From contig JASHYW010000423.1 in assembly GCA_030042885.1 (NCBI GenBank), positions 1-8,427 on the forward strand: DNA of 8,427 nucleotides. Direction: 5' to 3'. This document shows positions 581 to 8,080 of the stretch, piece after piece. Every line of letters starts with the position of its first letter. Within the stretch, counting starts at the first letter, position 1. The position numbers and the translations under genes were made by a program. This DNA is from Streptosporangiaceae bacterium (GTDB taxonomy: Bacteria; Actinomycetota; Actinomycetes; Streptosporangiales; Streptosporangiaceae). Below the pieces are notes generated by a model, which worked only from the letters and a program-made list of their open reading frames with translations, was not told where the DNA came from and searched no databases.

Positions 581-751
581 ATGAGACCAAAGAAGGTTAA
601 AGAAGGAAAGAAGGTAAAGAGGAAGGCGGGAAGCGCCGTCTACGAGGTCGAGGCCGACGACGTCGGACCCTCGCTAGGGAGCGCCCCGGCCAAGGTGAAC
701 CGGGTCAGCCCGAGATGCCTGGCTGCTCTCCTGCCTGCCAGAATGTTGTGA
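581..751 (+). CDS. Small basic/acidic protein, translationally coupled to the next gene
   Basis: A 56-residue protein starting MRPKKVKEGKKVKRKAG, with a lysine-rich N-terminus followed by a more acidic middle (YEVEADDVGP) and a neutral tail ending LAALLPARML. An ATG at 542 in the same frame is an alternative start; neither has a strong ribosome-binding site. The stop TGA (749-751) shares its A with the ATG of the next gene (TGATG), the usual arrangement for translational coupling, and this is the main evidence that the frame is real. A palindromic operator-like block lies about 55 bases upstream. I do not recognise the family and assign no function. Confidence 0.42.
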   Translation: MRPKKVKEGKKVKRKAGSAVYEVEADDVGPSLGSAPAKVNRVSPRCLAALLPARML

Positions 752-1032
752 TGCGGATCTCCGCCAGCTCATCGCGCTCACCCGGGTCCTCAGGCTCCAT
801 CCTGAGCATCGGGTCGAGCGGATCAATCCTGTCGATCGGCTCATCTGGCTCGATCCTGTCCATCGGCTCGGCGGGCTCGATCCTGTCGGTAGGATCAGTC
901 GGCTCACTGGCCTCGGCGTTCTCGATCGGCTCAGCTGCCAGCGTCGGCTCGATCTTGTCAGCTCTTTCCCGCTGGTCCATCCTGGCCTGGCGGTCCCGCG
1001 GGCATGCCCCGCTCCCACGCCGCCAGCGGTAA
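751..1032 (+). CDS. Tripeptide-repeat protein with Ser at every third residue
   Basis: A 93-residue protein. From residue 2 to 82 it is 27 consecutive triplets of the form x-x-Ser, with Ser in 26 of them (the exception is ILA near the end). The core is four nonapeptides of the type SGSILSIGS (residues 14-49), followed by looser triplets such as LAS, AFS, IGS, RWS, and a short basic tail (PRRQR). The register begins immediately after the Met at 751, supporting that start over the in-frame ATG at 715. The repeated serines use both TCN and AGC codons, suggesting selection on the protein rather than only DNA slippage. Similar Gly/Ser/Ile/Leu triplet-repeat hypothetical proteins occur in streptomycetes as far as I recall. 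A three-residue period would put all serines on one face of a PPII or 3-10-like helix; role unknown. An antisense frame rich in DRIEP repeats covers the same DNA and is the main alternative. Confidence 0.55.
   Translation: MRISASSSRSPGSSGSILSIGSSGSILSIGSSGSILSIGSAGSILSVGSVGSLASAFSIGSAASVGSILSALSRWSILAWRSRGHAPLPRRQR
790..897 (+). repeat. Four 27-base tandem units encoding SGSILSIGS-type nonapeptides
   Basis: Four successive 27-base units encode SGSILSIGS three times and then AGSILSVGS. The copies differ mainly at synonymous positions, and Ser appears as TCN or AGC. The repeat decays into looser triplets on both sides within the same gene. Confidence 0.8.
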
Positions 1033-1867: not shown

Positions 1868-2956
1868 TCAGCTTCCCGGCGGGCGCCGCCGACGGCGTGT
1901 GCCGCCTGCGGGTTGTCCGGGGGCGGCCTGCCCGGCCGCAGTGCCGGGACCAGTACGGGCCCGCTGCAGCTCAGCCTCAGCCTGCTCGGCGCGGGCCTGA
2001 AGCCCGGCCCGGGCCTCCTCCAGCGCCGCGATCTGGGCTTCCAGGCCCGCCCGCAGCTCGGCCTGGTCCCGCGCGGCGTCCTGCCGGGCCTGCGCCACCT
2101 GCTGGTCCGCGGCCTGGCGAGCCCGGTCCAGTTCCGCGCTGACCGCCTCGGCAGCTTCCCGCGCCCGGGCCGCCTCCTGCTCAGCGTCCCTGGCTCGGGA
2201 CTCGGCCGCGGCCACGCGCTCCTGCGCAGCCCGCTCAGCCTCGGCGGCCCGTGCCTGCGCCGCCTCCCGCACCCGCCCGGCCTCGGCCTCGGCCTGCTCG
2301 GCGCGGGCCTGAAGCCCGGTCCGGGCCTCCTCCAGCGCCGCAATCTGGGCTCCCAGGCCCGCCCGCAGCTCGGCCTGGTCTCGTGCGGCGTCCTTACGGG
2401 CCTGCGCCAGCTGCCGGTCCGCCGACACACGGGCCCGGTCCAGTTCCGCGCTGACCGCCTCGGCAGCTTCCCGCGCCCGGGCCGCCTCCTGCTCAGCGTC
2501 CCTGGCTCGGGACTCGGCCGCGGCCACGCGCTCCTGCGCAGCCTGCTCAGCCTCGGCGGCCCGTGCCTGCGCCGCCTCCCGCGCGCCCACGGCGTCCTGG
2601 TCGGCGGCTGCTTTCGCCGCCAGCGCCTCGGCCAGATGCGCATCTGCCTGCAGCGCCGCCAAGCGCGCCTCCCCCGCATCGGCCTCGGCACGCTGGCGGC
2701 GCTGCGCGCCAGCGCGCCACCAGGACGCAAACCCCGAGCGGCCCGCATCCTGCGGCCCGGGCATCCCGCCACCACCCTCCCGGGCCAGCACCTGGCGCCG
2801 CCGGAACGCGGTCAGCGCCGTATGCGGCTCCCCGGTCACCGGGTCCGGCAGCCCGCAGTACCCCGGCTCCGCTGCCTCCCCTGCCTCCCCCGGCCGCCGC
2901 TCATTCTCGCAGCCCGGGTACGCGCATCTGGGGACTTCCTGTCTCGTCTTCGCCAT
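1868..2956 (-). CDS. Cys/His-motif coiled-coil protein with a duplicated 104-residue unit
   Basis: A 362-residue protein. I start it at the ATG at 2956 (MAKTRQEVPRCAYPGC) because GGAG lies 7 bases upstream; an in-frame ATG at 3097 would add 47 Arg/Pro-rich residues with no ribosome-binding site. Residues 11-45 carry Cys11, Cys16, Cys34 and His45 (C-x4-C-x17-C-x10-H), a possible small zinc-binding module followed by basic FRRRQ. Residues about 75-331 are an Ala/Glu/Arg/Gln-rich long helix, almost certainly coiled coil. Within it a 104-residue unit occurs twice in tandem (residues 126-229 and 230-331) with few differences. The C-terminus is Gly/Pro-rich and ends RRRRRPPGS, a basic tail that could bind DNA. 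The architecture resembles KfrA-like or plasmid-borne actinobacterial coiled-coil proteins, so a DNA-binding or partition-accessory role is possible but inferred. Confidence 0.75.
   Translation of the reverse strand: MAKTRQEVPRCAYPGCENERRPGEAGEAAEPGYCGLPDPVTGEPHTALTAFRRRQVLAREGGGGMPGPQDAGRSGFASWWRAGAQRRQRAEADAGEARLAALQADAHLAEALAAKAAADQDAVGAREAAQARAAEAEQAAQERVAAAESRARDAEQEAARAREAAEAVSAELDRARVSADRQLAQARKDAARDQAELRAGLGAQIAALEEARTGLQARAEQAEAEAGRVREAAQARAAEAERAAQERVAAAESRARDAEQEAARAREAAEAVSAELDRARQAADQQVAQARQDAARDQAELRAGLEAQIAALEEARAGLQARAEQAEAELQRARTGPGTAAGQAAPGQPAGGTRRRRRPPGS
1964..2581 (-). repeat. Two tandem 312-base repeats inside the coiled-coil gene
   Basis: Units at 2270-2581 and 1964-2269 have a 312-base period (104 codons). 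For example, the stretch starting CCTGCTCGGCGCGGGCCTGA at 1981 recurs at 2293. Long stretches are identical at the DNA level including third positions, pointing to a recent in-frame duplication rather than ancient repeats. The second unit is slightly truncated at its end. Confidence 0.88.
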
Positions 2957-3097
2957 CGGCAGGCTCCGTTCAACTAACCAGCACAGCGTAACCGGGCGGC
3001 GCCGGACAGCCGGAACCGGCGACCTACGGCCGCCGGGAATCATCCGGGGCGAACCCCAAGCTGCCACCCGCCATACCACCGGGTCCTGAAGGGTCAC

Positions 3098-4253: not shown

Positions 4254-4340
4254 AGGCGCTCCGCTGACGTTGAAATCCGCGAGCATACGACGCCACCCCT
4301 CACCGGCATGGCCAGACATCCGGCTCCTATGCTCGGGAAT

Positions 4341-4781
4341 ATGGCGATTCAGCGGATGGACCATGTCGGCGTCGTTGTCGACGACCTTGAGGCTGCTACT
4401 GCGTTCTTTGCCGAACTTGGCATGGAGCTGGAGGGCCAGGCGCCAGTCGAGGGGCGCTGGGTGGACCGTGTCGTCGGGCTTGACGACGTCCAGGTCGACG
4501 TCGCGATGTTGCGGACCCCGGACGGCCACGGCCGGCTTGAGCTGACGAAGTTCCGCACGCCGGCGGCGGTCAGCGCCGAGCCGGCAAACGCGCCAGCGAA
4601 CACGCTGGGCATACGTCGCATCATGTTCGCCGTCGAAGACATCAAGGACGTCCTTGCCCGCCTGCACGCCCACGGCGCCGAACTCGTCGGCGAGCTGGAG
4701 CAATACGAGGACAGCTATCGGCTCTGTTACGTCCGCGGCCCCGAGGGCATCATCGCCGCACTGGCCGAGCAGCTCAGCTGA
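4341..4781 (+). CDS. VOC-fold (glyoxalase/bleomycin-resistance type) protein
   Basis: A 146-residue protein starting MAIQRMDHVGVVVDDLE, two paired beta-alpha-beta-beta-beta modules of the vicinal oxygen chelate superfamily. The first module spans residues 4-70 and the second about 88-145 (GIRRIMFAVEDIKDVLARL ... YVRGPEGIIAALAEQ). The usual metal ligands would be His8 and Glu67 (LELTKF) from the first module; the matching positions in the second are Arg93 and Ala140 instead of His and Glu, so a classic four-ligand metal site is not complete within one chain. I recall close homologues with the same RRIMFAV motif, so this is probably a family trait. Family members include lyases, dioxygenases and resistance proteins; substrate unknown. 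An upstream in-frame ATG at 4308 exists, but family N-termini begin at MAIQRMDH. The ribosome-binding site is weak (GGGA very close to the ATG). Confidence 0.85.
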   Translation: MAIQRMDHVGVVVDDLEAATAFFAELGMELEGQAPVEGRWVDRVVGLDDVQVDVAMLRTPDGHGRLELTKFRTPAAVSAEPANAPANTLGIRRIMFAVEDIKDVLARLHAHGAELVGELEQYEDSYRLCYVRGPEGIIAALAEQLS

Positions 4782-5110: not shown

Positions 5111-5122
5111 ATGGGAGGCGTC

Positions 5123-8080
5123 GTGAGTGACATATACGAGATGGGGCTGGAGGCGAACGCGGCGAACTACGCGCCGCTGACTCCGCTGGTGTTCTTGGAC
5201 TGGAGCGCGGACGTCTATCCTGACCGGCTGGCGGTCGTGCATGGCAGGCGGCGGTTCACCTGGGCGCAGACTCGCGAGCGGTGCCAGCGGCTTGCCTCGG
5301 CGTTGTCGGCGCGGGGCGTGGCCCGTGGTGACACGGTGTCGGTGGTCGCGGCGAACACCCCGGAGATGGTGGAGGCGCATTTCGGGGTCCCGATGACCGG
5401 CGCGGTGCTGAACACAGTCAACACCAGGCTGGACGCGGCGACGATCGGCTACATCCTCGATCACGCCCAGGCCCGGGTCCTGATCACCGACCGGGAGTTC
5501 TCCCCGGTGGTGGCCGAGGCGCTGCGGCTGTGCGAGGCGAGCCCGCTGGTGGTCGACATCGACGATCCCGAGTACGACGGGCCCGGGGACCGGCTGGGAC
5601 AAGAGGACTACGAGACCCTGCTTTCTGGTGCGGCGCCGCGGTATGAGCGGGCCGAGCCGGCGGATGAGTGGCAGGCGATCTCGCTGAACTACACCTCGGG
5701 CACGACGGGCAGGCCCAAAGGCGTCGTCTACCACCACCGGGGCGCGCACCTGAACGCCGTGGGGAACATCCTGACCTGGGGCATGCCCCGGCACAGCGTT
5801 TACCTGTGGACGCTGCCGATGTTCCACTGCAACGGCTGGTGCTTCCCGTGGACGATCGCGGCGAACTCGGGCACGAACGTGTGCCTGCGCAAGGTGGACG
5901 CCGCAGAGATCTTCCGGCTGATGCGGGCCGAGGGCATCACCCACTACTGCGGGGCCCCTACCGTGCACAACCTGCTGATCAACGCGCCCGAGGAGCTGCG
6001 CGAGGGCATCGGCCGGGTCTGTGCCATGGTGGCCGCCGCCGCCCCGCCGGCCGCGATGATCGAGGGCATGGAGCGGCTGGGGTTCGACTTGACCCACGTC
6101 TACGGGCTGACCGAAACCTACGGGCCCGCCGCGGTATGTGCCAAGCACGAGGACTGGGACGATCTGGACGTCGCGGGGCGGGCGCAGCGCAACGGCCGGC
6201 AGGGGGTGCGGTATCAGCTCCAAGACGCGATGACGGTCATCAGCCAAGAGGACGGCACCCGCGTGCCCGCCGACGGCCAGACCCTCGGCGAAATCGTGTT
6301 CCGGGGCAACATCACCATGAAGGGATACCTGAAAGACCCAGACGCCACCCAGGAGGCCTTCGCCGGCGGCTGGTTCCACTCCGGAGACCTGGCAGTACTT
6401 GAGCCTGATGGGTACGTGAAGATCAAGGACCGGGCCAAGGATGTGATCATCTCCGGCGGAGAGAACATCTCCTCGATCGAGGTCGAGGACGTGCTCTGCC
6501 GCCACCCCGCCGTCGCCATGGCCGGCGTGGTCGCCCAGCCCGACCCCAAATGGGGTGAGACCCCGCTGGCGTACGTGGAACTCAAACCAGGCGCACAAGC
6601 CACCGAGGCGGAGCTTATCGAGTACTGCCGGGCACGCCTGCCTCACTTTAAAGCCCCCAGAACGGTGGTGTTCACACAGCTGCCCAAGACCTCCACCGGC
6701 AAGATCCAAAAGCAGGTCCTGCGCGATCAGGCCCGATCCGCCTCCGCCATCGACAGCACAGCTGATTTAGACAGCTCACCCCTCGGTAGCAGGTCACGCT
6801 CTGTCATCTGTCTCCACGACTGGTTGCGCGCACAATGCCGCCTGGACGGCAGCGCAGTCACGACAGCCCGGGTGAGACTTACGGCGCGACCAGATCGCCC
6901 GGACGACCTCCGGGTCAGGAGGTCCAAAACGCACCGTTATGAGCCCGGACTTCCGCAGACAGTAGGCAAGCGATCAAGCGAAAATGGCGTGCGACCTGCG
7001 CAAAGGGTGGGCAGGCTTGATCGATGCGTGTTACTACAGGATCGGGCTGATCGGCGTCAGCTGCTGGCGTCCGTCTCGGTGGTGAAGTCGAAGAACCGTC
7101 GTGGCTCGGGGAGCTTGAGTGCGCTGAGGATGGTGCTGGCCAGCGGTGGTGACCGAGCGCTGGGCGACTTGGCCGTCGGTGGTGGCGAGGGTGACCAGGT
7201 GCATCCGCTCGAGCTCGTGCCGGATTTTGCGCCAGGTGCCGCAGGCCGTGTTCTCGATGACGCGGATGAGCAGCAGGGCGAGCCAGCACAGCTGGACGTG
7301 GGCGCGGATCCGGTCCTCGCGGTAGTGGTAGACGGGCCGCAGCTTGAGGGCGCCCTTCATGTCCCGCCAGCCGCTTTCCACCGCGATCAGCTGCTTGCAG
7401 GCGGCGGCCAGGTCGCCGGGGGTGAGGGTCTCGTCGTTGGTGCGCAGCAGCCACTTGCCGTCCAGGCCGGCTTCCCGCTTGATGGCGCCGCGGTCGATAC
7501 GCAGCAGCCCGCTGGGGGTGCGGCGCAGGAACCGGCGCAGCTCCGGCTTGTCCTTCAAGGACCCGGCCAGCTCATCCCGCTTGCGCTGGTCCACGTGCCG
7601 GAGCCGTCGATGAGGCCTTCCAGGTGTTTCACGAGCCGGTCGCGGACTAGCCGGTCCCGCAACGCCTGCTCAGGGTTGTGGCAGATCACGAACCGCTCTG
7701 CCCGCTCCCCGGCGTCCCGTGCAGGCACCCACACCTCCTTGACCCGCAGGTTCCCGGCGACGGCGTGCCGGTCACGTGGCTGGGGCCGCGGCGCCATCGT
7801 GGTGATCGGCCCCGCTGCCGATAACGAGTTTCACCTGGCCCAGTTCGACCTGGGCCAGGCGACGATGGCGATGATCCTGGCCGCCGCCGACCTGGGCATC
7901 GGCAGCTGCCACGCGGGGTCGCAGACATGCCGCTCGCCCGCCAGATGCTCGGCTTTCCCCAGGACCGCAGCTGGGCGCCGCTCATTTCCCTCGGCTACCC
8001 GGCGGACCGGCCGCTGGCACCGGTCAAGAACCCCCCGGCGGCGGCCCTTCGGCGAGGTTGTGCACCGCGGCCGCTGGTAG
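5123..8080 (+). CDS. AMP-forming acyl-CoA synthetase (FadD/DmdB-like) with an aberrant 440-residue read-through tail
   Basis: The enzyme activates carboxylic acids to acyl-CoA through an acyl-adenylate. I choose the GTG at 5123 (VSDIYEMGLEANAANYAPL) because GGAGG lies 4 bases upstream; an ATG at 5111 lacks such a site. In GTG numbering: P-loop YTSGTTGRPKG at 190-200, YGLTETYGP at 327-335, HSGDL at 419-423, DRAKDVIISGGENIS at 436-450, and the C-terminal PKTSTGKIQK with catalytic Lys527. The family-like part ends near residue 541 (about base 6745), the usual length for this subfamily. No stop follows: the frame stays open another 444 codons, crossing a leftward transposase remnant in antisense (about 7057-7768) and then reading the sense strand of a nitroreductase fragment from 7790 (residue 890). 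The tail is therefore an artefact of rearrangement, not a domain. The adenylating part looks intact; whether the 985-residue product is stable is unknown. The substrate is probably medium- or long-chain or a related carboxylate. Confidence 0.85.
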   Translation: MSDIYEMGLEANAANYAPLTPLVFLDWSADVYPDRLAVVHGRRRFTWAQTRERCQRLASALSARGVARGDTVSVVAANTPEMVEAHFGVPMTGAVLNTVNTRLDAATIGYILDHAQARVLITDREFSPVVAEALRLCEASPLVVDIDDPEYDGPGDRLGQEDYETLLSGAAPRYERAEPADEWQAISLNYTSGTTGRPKGVVYHHRGAHLNAVGNILTWGMPRHSVYLWTLPMFHCNGWCFPWTIAANSGTNVCLRKVDAAEIFRLMRAEGITHYCGAPTVHNLLINAPEELREGIGRVCAMVAAAAPPAAMIEGMERLGFDLTHVYGLTETYGPAAVCAKHEDWDDLDVAGRAQRNGRQGVRYQLQDAMTVISQEDGTRVPADGQTLGEIVFRGNITMKGYLKDPDATQEAFAGGWFHSGDLAVLEPDGYVKIKDRAKDVIISGGENISSIEVEDVLCRHPAVAMAGVVAQPDPKWGETPLAYVELKPGAQATEAELIEYCRARLPHFKAPRTVVFTQLPKTSTGKIQKQVLRDQARSASAIDSTADLDSSPLGSRSRSVICLHDWLRAQCRLDGSAVTTARVRLTARPDRPDDLRVRRSKTHRYEPGLPQTVGKRSSENGVRPAQRVGRLDRCVLLQDRADRRQLLASVSVVKSKNRRGSGSLSALRMVLASGGDRALGDLAVGGGEGDQVHPLELVPDFAPGAAGRVLDDADEQQGEPAQLDVGADPVLAVVVDGPQLEGALHVPPAAFHRDQLLAGGGQVAGGEGLVVGAQQPLAVQAGFPLDGAAVDTQQPAGGAAQEPAQLRLVLQGPGQLIPLALVHVPEPSMRPSRCFTSRSRTSRSRNACSGLWQITNRSARSPASRAGTHTSLTRRFPATACRSRGWGRGAIVVIGPAADNEFHLAQFDLGQATMAMILAAADLGIGSCHAGSQTCRSPARCSAFPRTAAGRRSFPSATRRTGRWHRSRTPRRRPFGEVVHRGRW
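6905..6924 (+). other. Stem-loop GACCTCC-N6-GGAGGTC
   Basis: A perfect 7-base-pair stem with a 6-base loop, lying after the acyl-CoA synthetase catalytic domain and before the transposase remnant. It has no following T run, so it is a weak terminator candidate at best; it may be the original transcript end or part of an insertion boundary. Confidence 0.3.
6936..7789 (-). mobile_element. Truncated IS1634-type insertion sequence
   Basis: Contains the C-terminal part of an IS1634-type transposase reading leftward plus about 120 bases of downstream sequence. The left limit is a guess: CCGTTATGAGCCCGGACTTC near 6935-6955 resembles a terminal sequence I associate with these elements, but the matching right end is missing. 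On the right the element stops abruptly between about 7768 and 7789, where nitroreductase coding sequence begins, so the transposase 5' half and one terminal repeat were deleted. An inverted repeat CGATCAAGC (6971-6979) / GCTTGATCG (7015-7023) lies downstream of the transposase stop. Confidence 0.5.
7057..7768 (-). pseudogene. IS1634-family DDE transposase, C-terminal part, frameshifted
   Basis: Three frames join to give about 237 residues. The first (7768 to about 7591) reads HAVAGNLRVKEVWVPARD and FVICHNPEQALRDRLVRDRL. The second (about 7594 to 7141) reads DQRKRDELAGSLKDKPELRR and continues with LLRIDRGAIKREAGLDGKWL, KQLIAVESGWRDMK, HYREDRIRAHVQLCWLALLL and LERMHLVTLATTDGQVAQR. The third (about 7140 to TGA 7057) reads TILSALKLPEPRRFFDFTTE and ends DASS. 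The pattern x-KQLIAVESGWRDMK is the C-terminal YREK-like region of IS4/IS1634 transposases with the third catalytic acidic residue (Glu) and the conserved Lys kept, but the usual Tyr is Cys here. The N-terminal half carrying the first two catalytic Asp residues is missing, so the product cannot transpose. Confidence 0.8.
7790..8080 (+). pseudogene. Nitroreductase-family C-terminal remnant with two frameshifts
   Basis: The + strand reads GAIVVIGPAADNEFHLAQFD, then LGQATMAMILAAADLGIGS, then after a one-base loss in a G run (7915-7918) VADMPLARQMLGFPQDRSW and APLISLGYPADRPLAPVKNP, then after a one-base gain in a C run (8031-8036) RRRPFGEVVHRGRW and TAG. This is the C-terminal part of an FMN-dependent nitroreductase-like protein, with the helix LGQATMAMILAAADLGIGS and the closing ISLGYP.....PVKNPRRRPF phrase typical of the family. 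The FMN-binding N-terminal half is absent; the truncated transposase abuts it. The first segment shares its frame with the acyl-CoA synthetase read-through. It cannot encode a functional enzyme. Confidence 0.72.

Follow-up and report, generated by a model that had tools for sequence, protein, structure and literature searches.

An apparently undescribed actinobacterial protein family with serine at every third residue: coding strand, probable leaderless start, and structural readings

Genes and features of the locus

The window, that is, the whole stretch of 8,427 nucleotides that was analysed, carries on its forward strand a short gene whose product bears a stripe of serines at every third position (Table 1). 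Ser closes 26 of the 27 triplets across residues 2 to 82, the exception being ILA at residues 77 to 79; the longest such run with one exception allowed is 27 triplets, whereas shuffling the residues 20,000 times never gave more than 13. The first-pass annotation, which had read this register from the letters, was right on this point and also on the nested nonapeptide SGSILSIGS, which is present in three consecutive copies with AGSILSVGS next. As it had also stated, both kinds of serine codon are used, with 27 TCN and 4 AGC among the 31. The DNA copies that encode the nonapeptides match one another at 71 to 78% (Tandem Repeats Finder), and the encoded peptides are nearly identical; across the window and 80 loci of relatives, identical octapeptides inside single genes differ at 102 of 264 codons, 95 of them by a third-base change. 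TCA accounts for 9 of the 31 Ser codons in 751 to 1029, whereas the window's AMP-binding gene uses it for 1 of 24, and it is far rarer in the stripe genes of the 80 other loci (72 of 1,927 Ser codons) than in the window; this high TCA use perhaps keeps the repeat copies unlike at the DNA level.

Table 1. Features of the window
Feature	Position	Strand	Remarks
Mirror open reading frame, DRIEPxEP-rich	705–980	-	opposes the sense wobble positions; not considered a gene
-10-like hexamer CAGAAT	739–744	+	6 nt before the ATG; TG at 736–737 makes it an extended -10
xxS-stripe gene	751–1032	+	93 aa plus stop; ATG start, probably leaderless
Four nonapeptides (SGSILSIGS three times, then AGSILSVGS)	790–897	+	residues 14–49
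Second half of stripe, less regular, ending SRWSILAWRS	898–996	+	residues 50–82; helix 48–84 in a low-confidence model
Open frame, Ala/Glu/Arg-rich	1868–3097	-	409 aa; coiled-coil-like by eye
Glyoxalase-family protein	4308–4781	+	
AMP-binding enzyme	5111–6790	+	acyl-CoA synthetase-like
Pieces resembling a broken transposase	7034–7797	-	piece 7037–7594, DDE_Tnp_1 at E 0.011, below cut-off

The Ala/Glu/Arg-rich frame contains a 312-base tandem duplication (94% matches) and has no Pfam family at E 0.001.

Coding strand and selection on the stripe

The mirror frame opposes the sense wobble positions, so that wobble changes alone hardly discriminate between the strands; nor does an open sense frame count as evidence for strand, the sense protein having been used to choose the loci. 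We therefore compared the two translations residue by residue across an alignment of 78 genes, from 77 loci and the window. Mean entropy over 78 columns was 1.11 for the sense and 1.64 for the antisense translation, with the sense value lower in 61 columns and the antisense value in 2; over the 23 Ser columns the means were 0.20 and 1.21, and opposite the near-invariant Ser the antisense residue varies between Asp and Glu, with Leu at some positions. Substitutions, for which the first-pass annotation had proposed a comparison on both strands, leave the sense frame far more constrained, with pN/pS of 0.146 against 0.404 in 56 pairs at 1 to 15% difference (uncorrected proportions; the pairs are not independent). 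Homologues with a broken serine register and a conserved antisense frame were looked for, and the opposite was found: at 27 of 80 loci the mirror frame has a stop inside the match, and it has none in 53, as expected for GC-rich DNA. The gene at 751 to 1032 is almost certainly real and coded on the sense strand.

The choice of serine codon is not free. TCN outnumbers AGY by 1,685 to 192, the AGY share of Ser codons is 11% in the stripe genes against 28% in neighbouring genes, and a single Ser column is AGY in 73 of 78 genes, which fits common descent. Nevertheless, 9 of the 24 Ser columns contain TCN and AGY four or more times each. The near-invariant Ser columns in 77 relatives and the window, their mixed codons, and the better conserved sense frame together support, as far as aligned sequences can, the earlier proposal that the period-3 serine stripe itself is under selection.

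Start site and promoter

A longer frame is possible from the ATG at 715, but the start at 751 is favoured by the -10-like hexamer directly before it. The hexamer weight matrix was built manually with the sequences already known, which makes exact bits soft although the contrast is still large. With it, 75 of 78 family starts have a -10-like hexamer scoring 3 bits or higher 5 to 8 nt upstream of the ATG, as do 4 of 78 random ATGs drawn from all loci. A threshold of 4 bits leaves 42 and 1 of 78, respectively, and many Nocardia and Rhodococcus genes score barely above 3 bits. Only in-frame ATGs were considered, and three of the 80 loci without a suitable one (L009, L010, and L038) were dropped. 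An extended TG precedes the hexamer in 52 of 78 genes; in 29 of the best 120 listed relatives, the same element is translated within an N-terminal extension (CEN..M type). A simple scan of 450 to 1400 found neither a consensus -35 plus -10 promoter nor a terminator. Because the hexamer sits 5 to 8 nt ahead of the ATG across the family, the mRNA is probably leaderless, and its placement strongly suggests that an extended -10 promoter of its own drives the window gene.

A widespread actinobacterial family

A protein search with the window protein, in which the 7,990 candidates sharing most words were scored and the best 120 listed, gave at least 709 relatives at E ≤ 0.001, and a search from a distant member (7,986 scored; best 120 listed) gave at least 673. 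A genome scan yielded at least 595 pattern stretches and at least 553 encoding a relative, from which 80 loci were kept. All 80 are titled as actinobacterial and they include Streptomyces, Kitasatospora, Rhodococcus, Nocardia, Frankia, Nocardioides, Kribbella, Cellulomonas, and others, among them genera that are easily handled in the laboratory; Acidimicrobiales and Iamia are among the named distant members. The stripe has 14 to 32 serines in the 220 sense-frame proteins examined (listed relatives from both searches plus the window). We define the family by a Ser in each third position across some 14 triplets or more, together with GSxLSxGS units, and the window protein conforms to this definition.

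The family was found in at least 23 of 346 genomes across the phylum, a lower bound because up to 14 candidates were scored per genome. Surveys of single families, with 40 to 49 candidates scored per genome, found it to be common: at least 64 of 121 sampled genomes were positive in the family of a Streptomyces, at least 41 of 121 in that of Prescottella, and at least 13 of 100 in that of L002, a Streptosporangiaceae relative with the top identity among the 80 loci. Of 12 genomes, 11 have the stripe at a single place, and the two overlapping pieces in the twelfth represent a single gene. A few surveyed genomes have two or three places, some of them pieces of one gene and others separate, and one genome in the Streptomyces-family survey has three stripe places far apart. 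Judged by these matches, the window gene belongs to a widespread family of actinobacterial proteins whose Ser-every-third stripe is strict and which normally have one copy per genome. The literature search found nothing on these stripe peptides, and the family is apparently undescribed.

Architecture and lineage-specific tails

The proteins share one order, in which a variable N terminus of about 6 to 46 residues (L009 excepted) is followed by S-x-G-S-I-L-S-I-G units and then by the less regular stripe, usually ending in SxWSxxxWR. Near-perfect nonapeptide units number 1 to 5 per protein, with a mode of 3 in the locus proteins (33/77) and of 4 in alignment A1 (29/50). Of the 77 locus proteins, 62 have the pattern S.WS..W, as have 36 of the 50 A1 rows; among these 50 rows W80 is kept in 49 and R81 in 45, and the window protein has the SxWSxxxWR end. 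The Ser register spans about 60 to 90 residues across the family, and its strictness probably points to a structural purpose; a period of three kept over up to about 30 serines in distant genera calls for a structural reason.

What follows the stripe differs among lineages. Judged by hydropathy alone, 24 of the 77 locus proteins have a membrane-like C-terminal segment, 23 of them among the 29 Streptomycetaceae and the other from Kribbella, and so do 51 of 99 further proteins from the distant-member search; an IGAxGG-like motif is carried by 23 of these 99 (13 in its strict form). All 35 Mycobacteriales members have an acidic C-terminal end, which closes with H-x-Q-S/T in 31, and none of them has a membrane-like tail; the tail is also lacking in the window protein, which has a short one, as do the Frankia, Nocardioides, and Cellulomonas members. 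New here are the probable leaderless start with its -10-like hexamer, the nonapeptide units with a Trp/Arg end, and the lineage tails.

Genomic context

Neighbouring genes were called by a home-made procedure (open frames of at least 90 aa with GC-biased third positions). In Mycobacteriales, the stripe gene has its place near four genes (clusters 0 to 3) that are kept at 30 to 34 of 36 loci. A Pfam scan of one such locus placed a GT87 family protein and an Rv2525c-like protein among the neighbours; the immediate upstream protein there is without a Pfam family and presumably resembles Rv1157c, and cluster 1 we take to be a TypA/BipA-like GTPase. These neighbours are syntenic and are read as bystanders. 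At the 44 non-Mycobacteriales loci, just three neighbour clusters occurred at three or more loci within 2.5 kb. An operon partner was rejected because no neighbour recurs widely outside Mycobacteriales.

Relation to known repeat proteins

No member reached a curated cut-off in Pfam or NCBIfam, and the window protein has no Pfam match at E ≤ 1. The NCBIfam matches were HxsA4, at 14.1 bits for the window protein and 28.4 bits for the best relative against a cut-off of 55 (one distant member at E 2.3e-6), and a few chance matches. In PHROGs, which sets no cut-offs, one model of unknown function matched at E 0.026 for the window and 0.0005 for a distant relative, and this is taken for a composition effect; a sequence search of the PDB gave eight weak matches, the best three being GS-rich stretches. 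BLAST against plasmids and phages gave no match, which says little, since the low-complexity filter evidently masks the stripe (at E ≤ 1 just the tail of another member was matched). Among viral contigs, 70 stretches matched the pattern, and none was confirmed as a relative.

Among known kinds, Gly-rich polyproline II bundles and His-Xaa-Ser precursors come closest, and membership fails in both where tested. Polyproline II bundles carry a GXX pattern, whereas here the constant residue is Ser, with Gly in part of the triplets. Examples of such polyglycine II bundles are the snow flea antifreeze protein, the Obg domain, and acetophenone carboxylase (PMC8409303). A left-handed helix turning every three residues (proposed here for the stripe), richness in Gly, and close packing of small residues are shared; in the bundles, however, the small residue is Gly and the helices are short, with turns between them, whereas here Ser is constant over about 27 unbroken triplets. 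HxsA proteins, whose maturation is thought to be due to the radical SAM proteins HxsB/HxsC (NF038313; PMC9062424), likewise have a repeat carrying Ser at every third residue. Unlike them, the window family has no His repeat and scores far under the cut-off. No HxsC scored above its cut-off in the genomes of 13 relatives; weaker matches, seen in 12 of these, were equally present in 14 of 14 control genomes. No maturation gene recurs nearby outside Mycobacteriales. Membership in HxsA was rejected on these scores and on the HxsC count.

Two further kinds are more distant. RTX repeats, with the motif GGxGxDxUx, resemble the window protein in having a nonapeptide, a Gly-rich turn, and an aliphatic strand position, but the window protein has a strict Ser register, no Pfam match, and no Asp/calcium motif (no Asp at all). 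Silk-like and other low-complexity Gly/Ser repeat proteins share Gly, Ser, Ala, few charges, and perhaps assembly; unlike them, the stripe proteins are small, normally of one copy, probably leaderless, and invariant at particular positions across genera, with a specific Trp/Arg end.

Structural models and possible roles of the stripe

The AlphaFold2 model of the window protein (50 sequences) has a mean pLDDT of 54.1 and a single helix with block means of 55 to 75, and that of a Kitasatospora member (74 sequences) has a mean of 51.3 with helices at residues 39 to 82 and 88 to 101. Neither contains a strand, the nonapeptides have no supported fold in either protein, and neither model accounts for the conserved period three. 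When residues 13 to 76 are projected at different angular steps, it is the 120-degree step, among those tried, at which Ser and Gly each fall on one side (resultants of 0.83 and 1.00), in contrast to 0.03 and 0.09 at 100 degrees; the family mean for Ser at 120 degrees is 0.87 (77 proteins). This clustering follows from the period and thus is no evidence that a threefold conformation exists. About 60 residues of the window stripe are without charge, and the mean hydropathy of 19-residue windows starting at residues 13 to 61 is 0.9 to 1.4, always below 1.6. Of the three-residue helix with a serine face envisaged by the first-pass annotation, the geometry is consistent, whereas the structure prediction it had called for gave low confidence (mean pLDDT of 54 and 51) and an alpha-helix for the second half.

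Our preferred reading, to which we give a probability of about one in three, combines a real gene of the striped family with a threefold, self-associating, membrane-linked product, for which we infer the following mechanism. The stripe would be extended and turn about once every three residues, or stack as nine-residue units. Ser would then occupy one face and Gly, allowing close packing, another, leaving the third largely to Ile/Leu/Val. Copies of the protein could associate laterally, and the hydrophobic second half may anchor the assembly at the cytoplasmic membrane, with the C-terminal membrane-like segment adding anchorage in most Streptomycetaceae; the protein would act as a small scaffold that associates with itself, or as a surface element. 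The 120-degree clustering of Ser and Gly, the membrane-like tails, and the solitary setting of the gene at the non-Mycobacteriales loci are in line with this reading. Against it stand the alpha-helix modelled in the second half, round which residues spaced by three do not keep to one face, the lack of such a tail in Mycobacteriales and in the window protein, and the scarcity of perfect nonapeptide units in many members (1 to 5, mostly 3). The broader proposal of a new architecture, in which a threefold Ser-striped helix encoded by a single-copy leaderless gene with interchangeable tails self-assembles at the membrane of a large share of soil actinobacteria and has gone undescribed, is tentative and more likely wrong than right.

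A solenoid of 9 or 18 residues per coil would fit the period equally well, and the nonapeptides might form a beta-roll, as RTX nonapeptides do, or another beta-solenoid in which Ser ladders replace the calcium sites. The nine-residue unit with strand-like SILSI and turn-like GSxGS, and the regular central units flanked by degenerate ones, as in capped solenoids, speak for such a fold; yet AlphaFold2, which usually recognises beta-solenoids of this kind, placed no strand in either model, and the period of three persists through the second half, where the unit of nine is lost. We therefore consider it possible but rather unlikely.

The uncharged stretch and its hydropathy, the Arg/Trp-rich end, the modelled helix, and the separate membrane-like tail common among relatives are also what would be expected of a small membrane protein, holin-like or pore-like, with the stripe as one or two alpha-helices packed via small residues. 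Alpha-helical packing, however, needs no residue at an exact spacing of three, Ser and aliphatic residues are scattered round an alpha-helix (resultants of 0.03 and 0.19), and the hydropathy of the window protein stays under 1.6 throughout, making this explanation unlikely.

Serine, as the invariant residue, could instead form a ladder of modification sites for a kinase, glycosylation, or RiPP-like maturation, and the weak HxsA4 likeness (14 to 28 bits in six proteins) points the same way. The home-made gene calls show no recurrent adjacent enzyme gene outside Mycobacteriales, and HxsC is missing above cut-off from the relatives' genomes; even allowing for an enzyme encoded elsewhere, such a role seems improbable.

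That the acidic antisense frame is the true gene and the Ser stripe its shadow is scarcely conceivable, despite the mirror frame being open in the window (92 codons without a stop) and having 224 database proteins that resemble it at E ≤ 0.001, and was rejected as far as sequence evidence reaches, since stops, entropy, the Asp/Glu/Leu mixtures facing invariant Ser, and pN/pS all favour the sense strand, to which the promoter-like hexamer and the conserved tails also belong. Apparently because the mirror frame is open, antisense proteins have entered the databases as well, a caution for the annotation of GC-rich repeat genes; the many proteins predicted from the mirror strand of the family are probably spurious.
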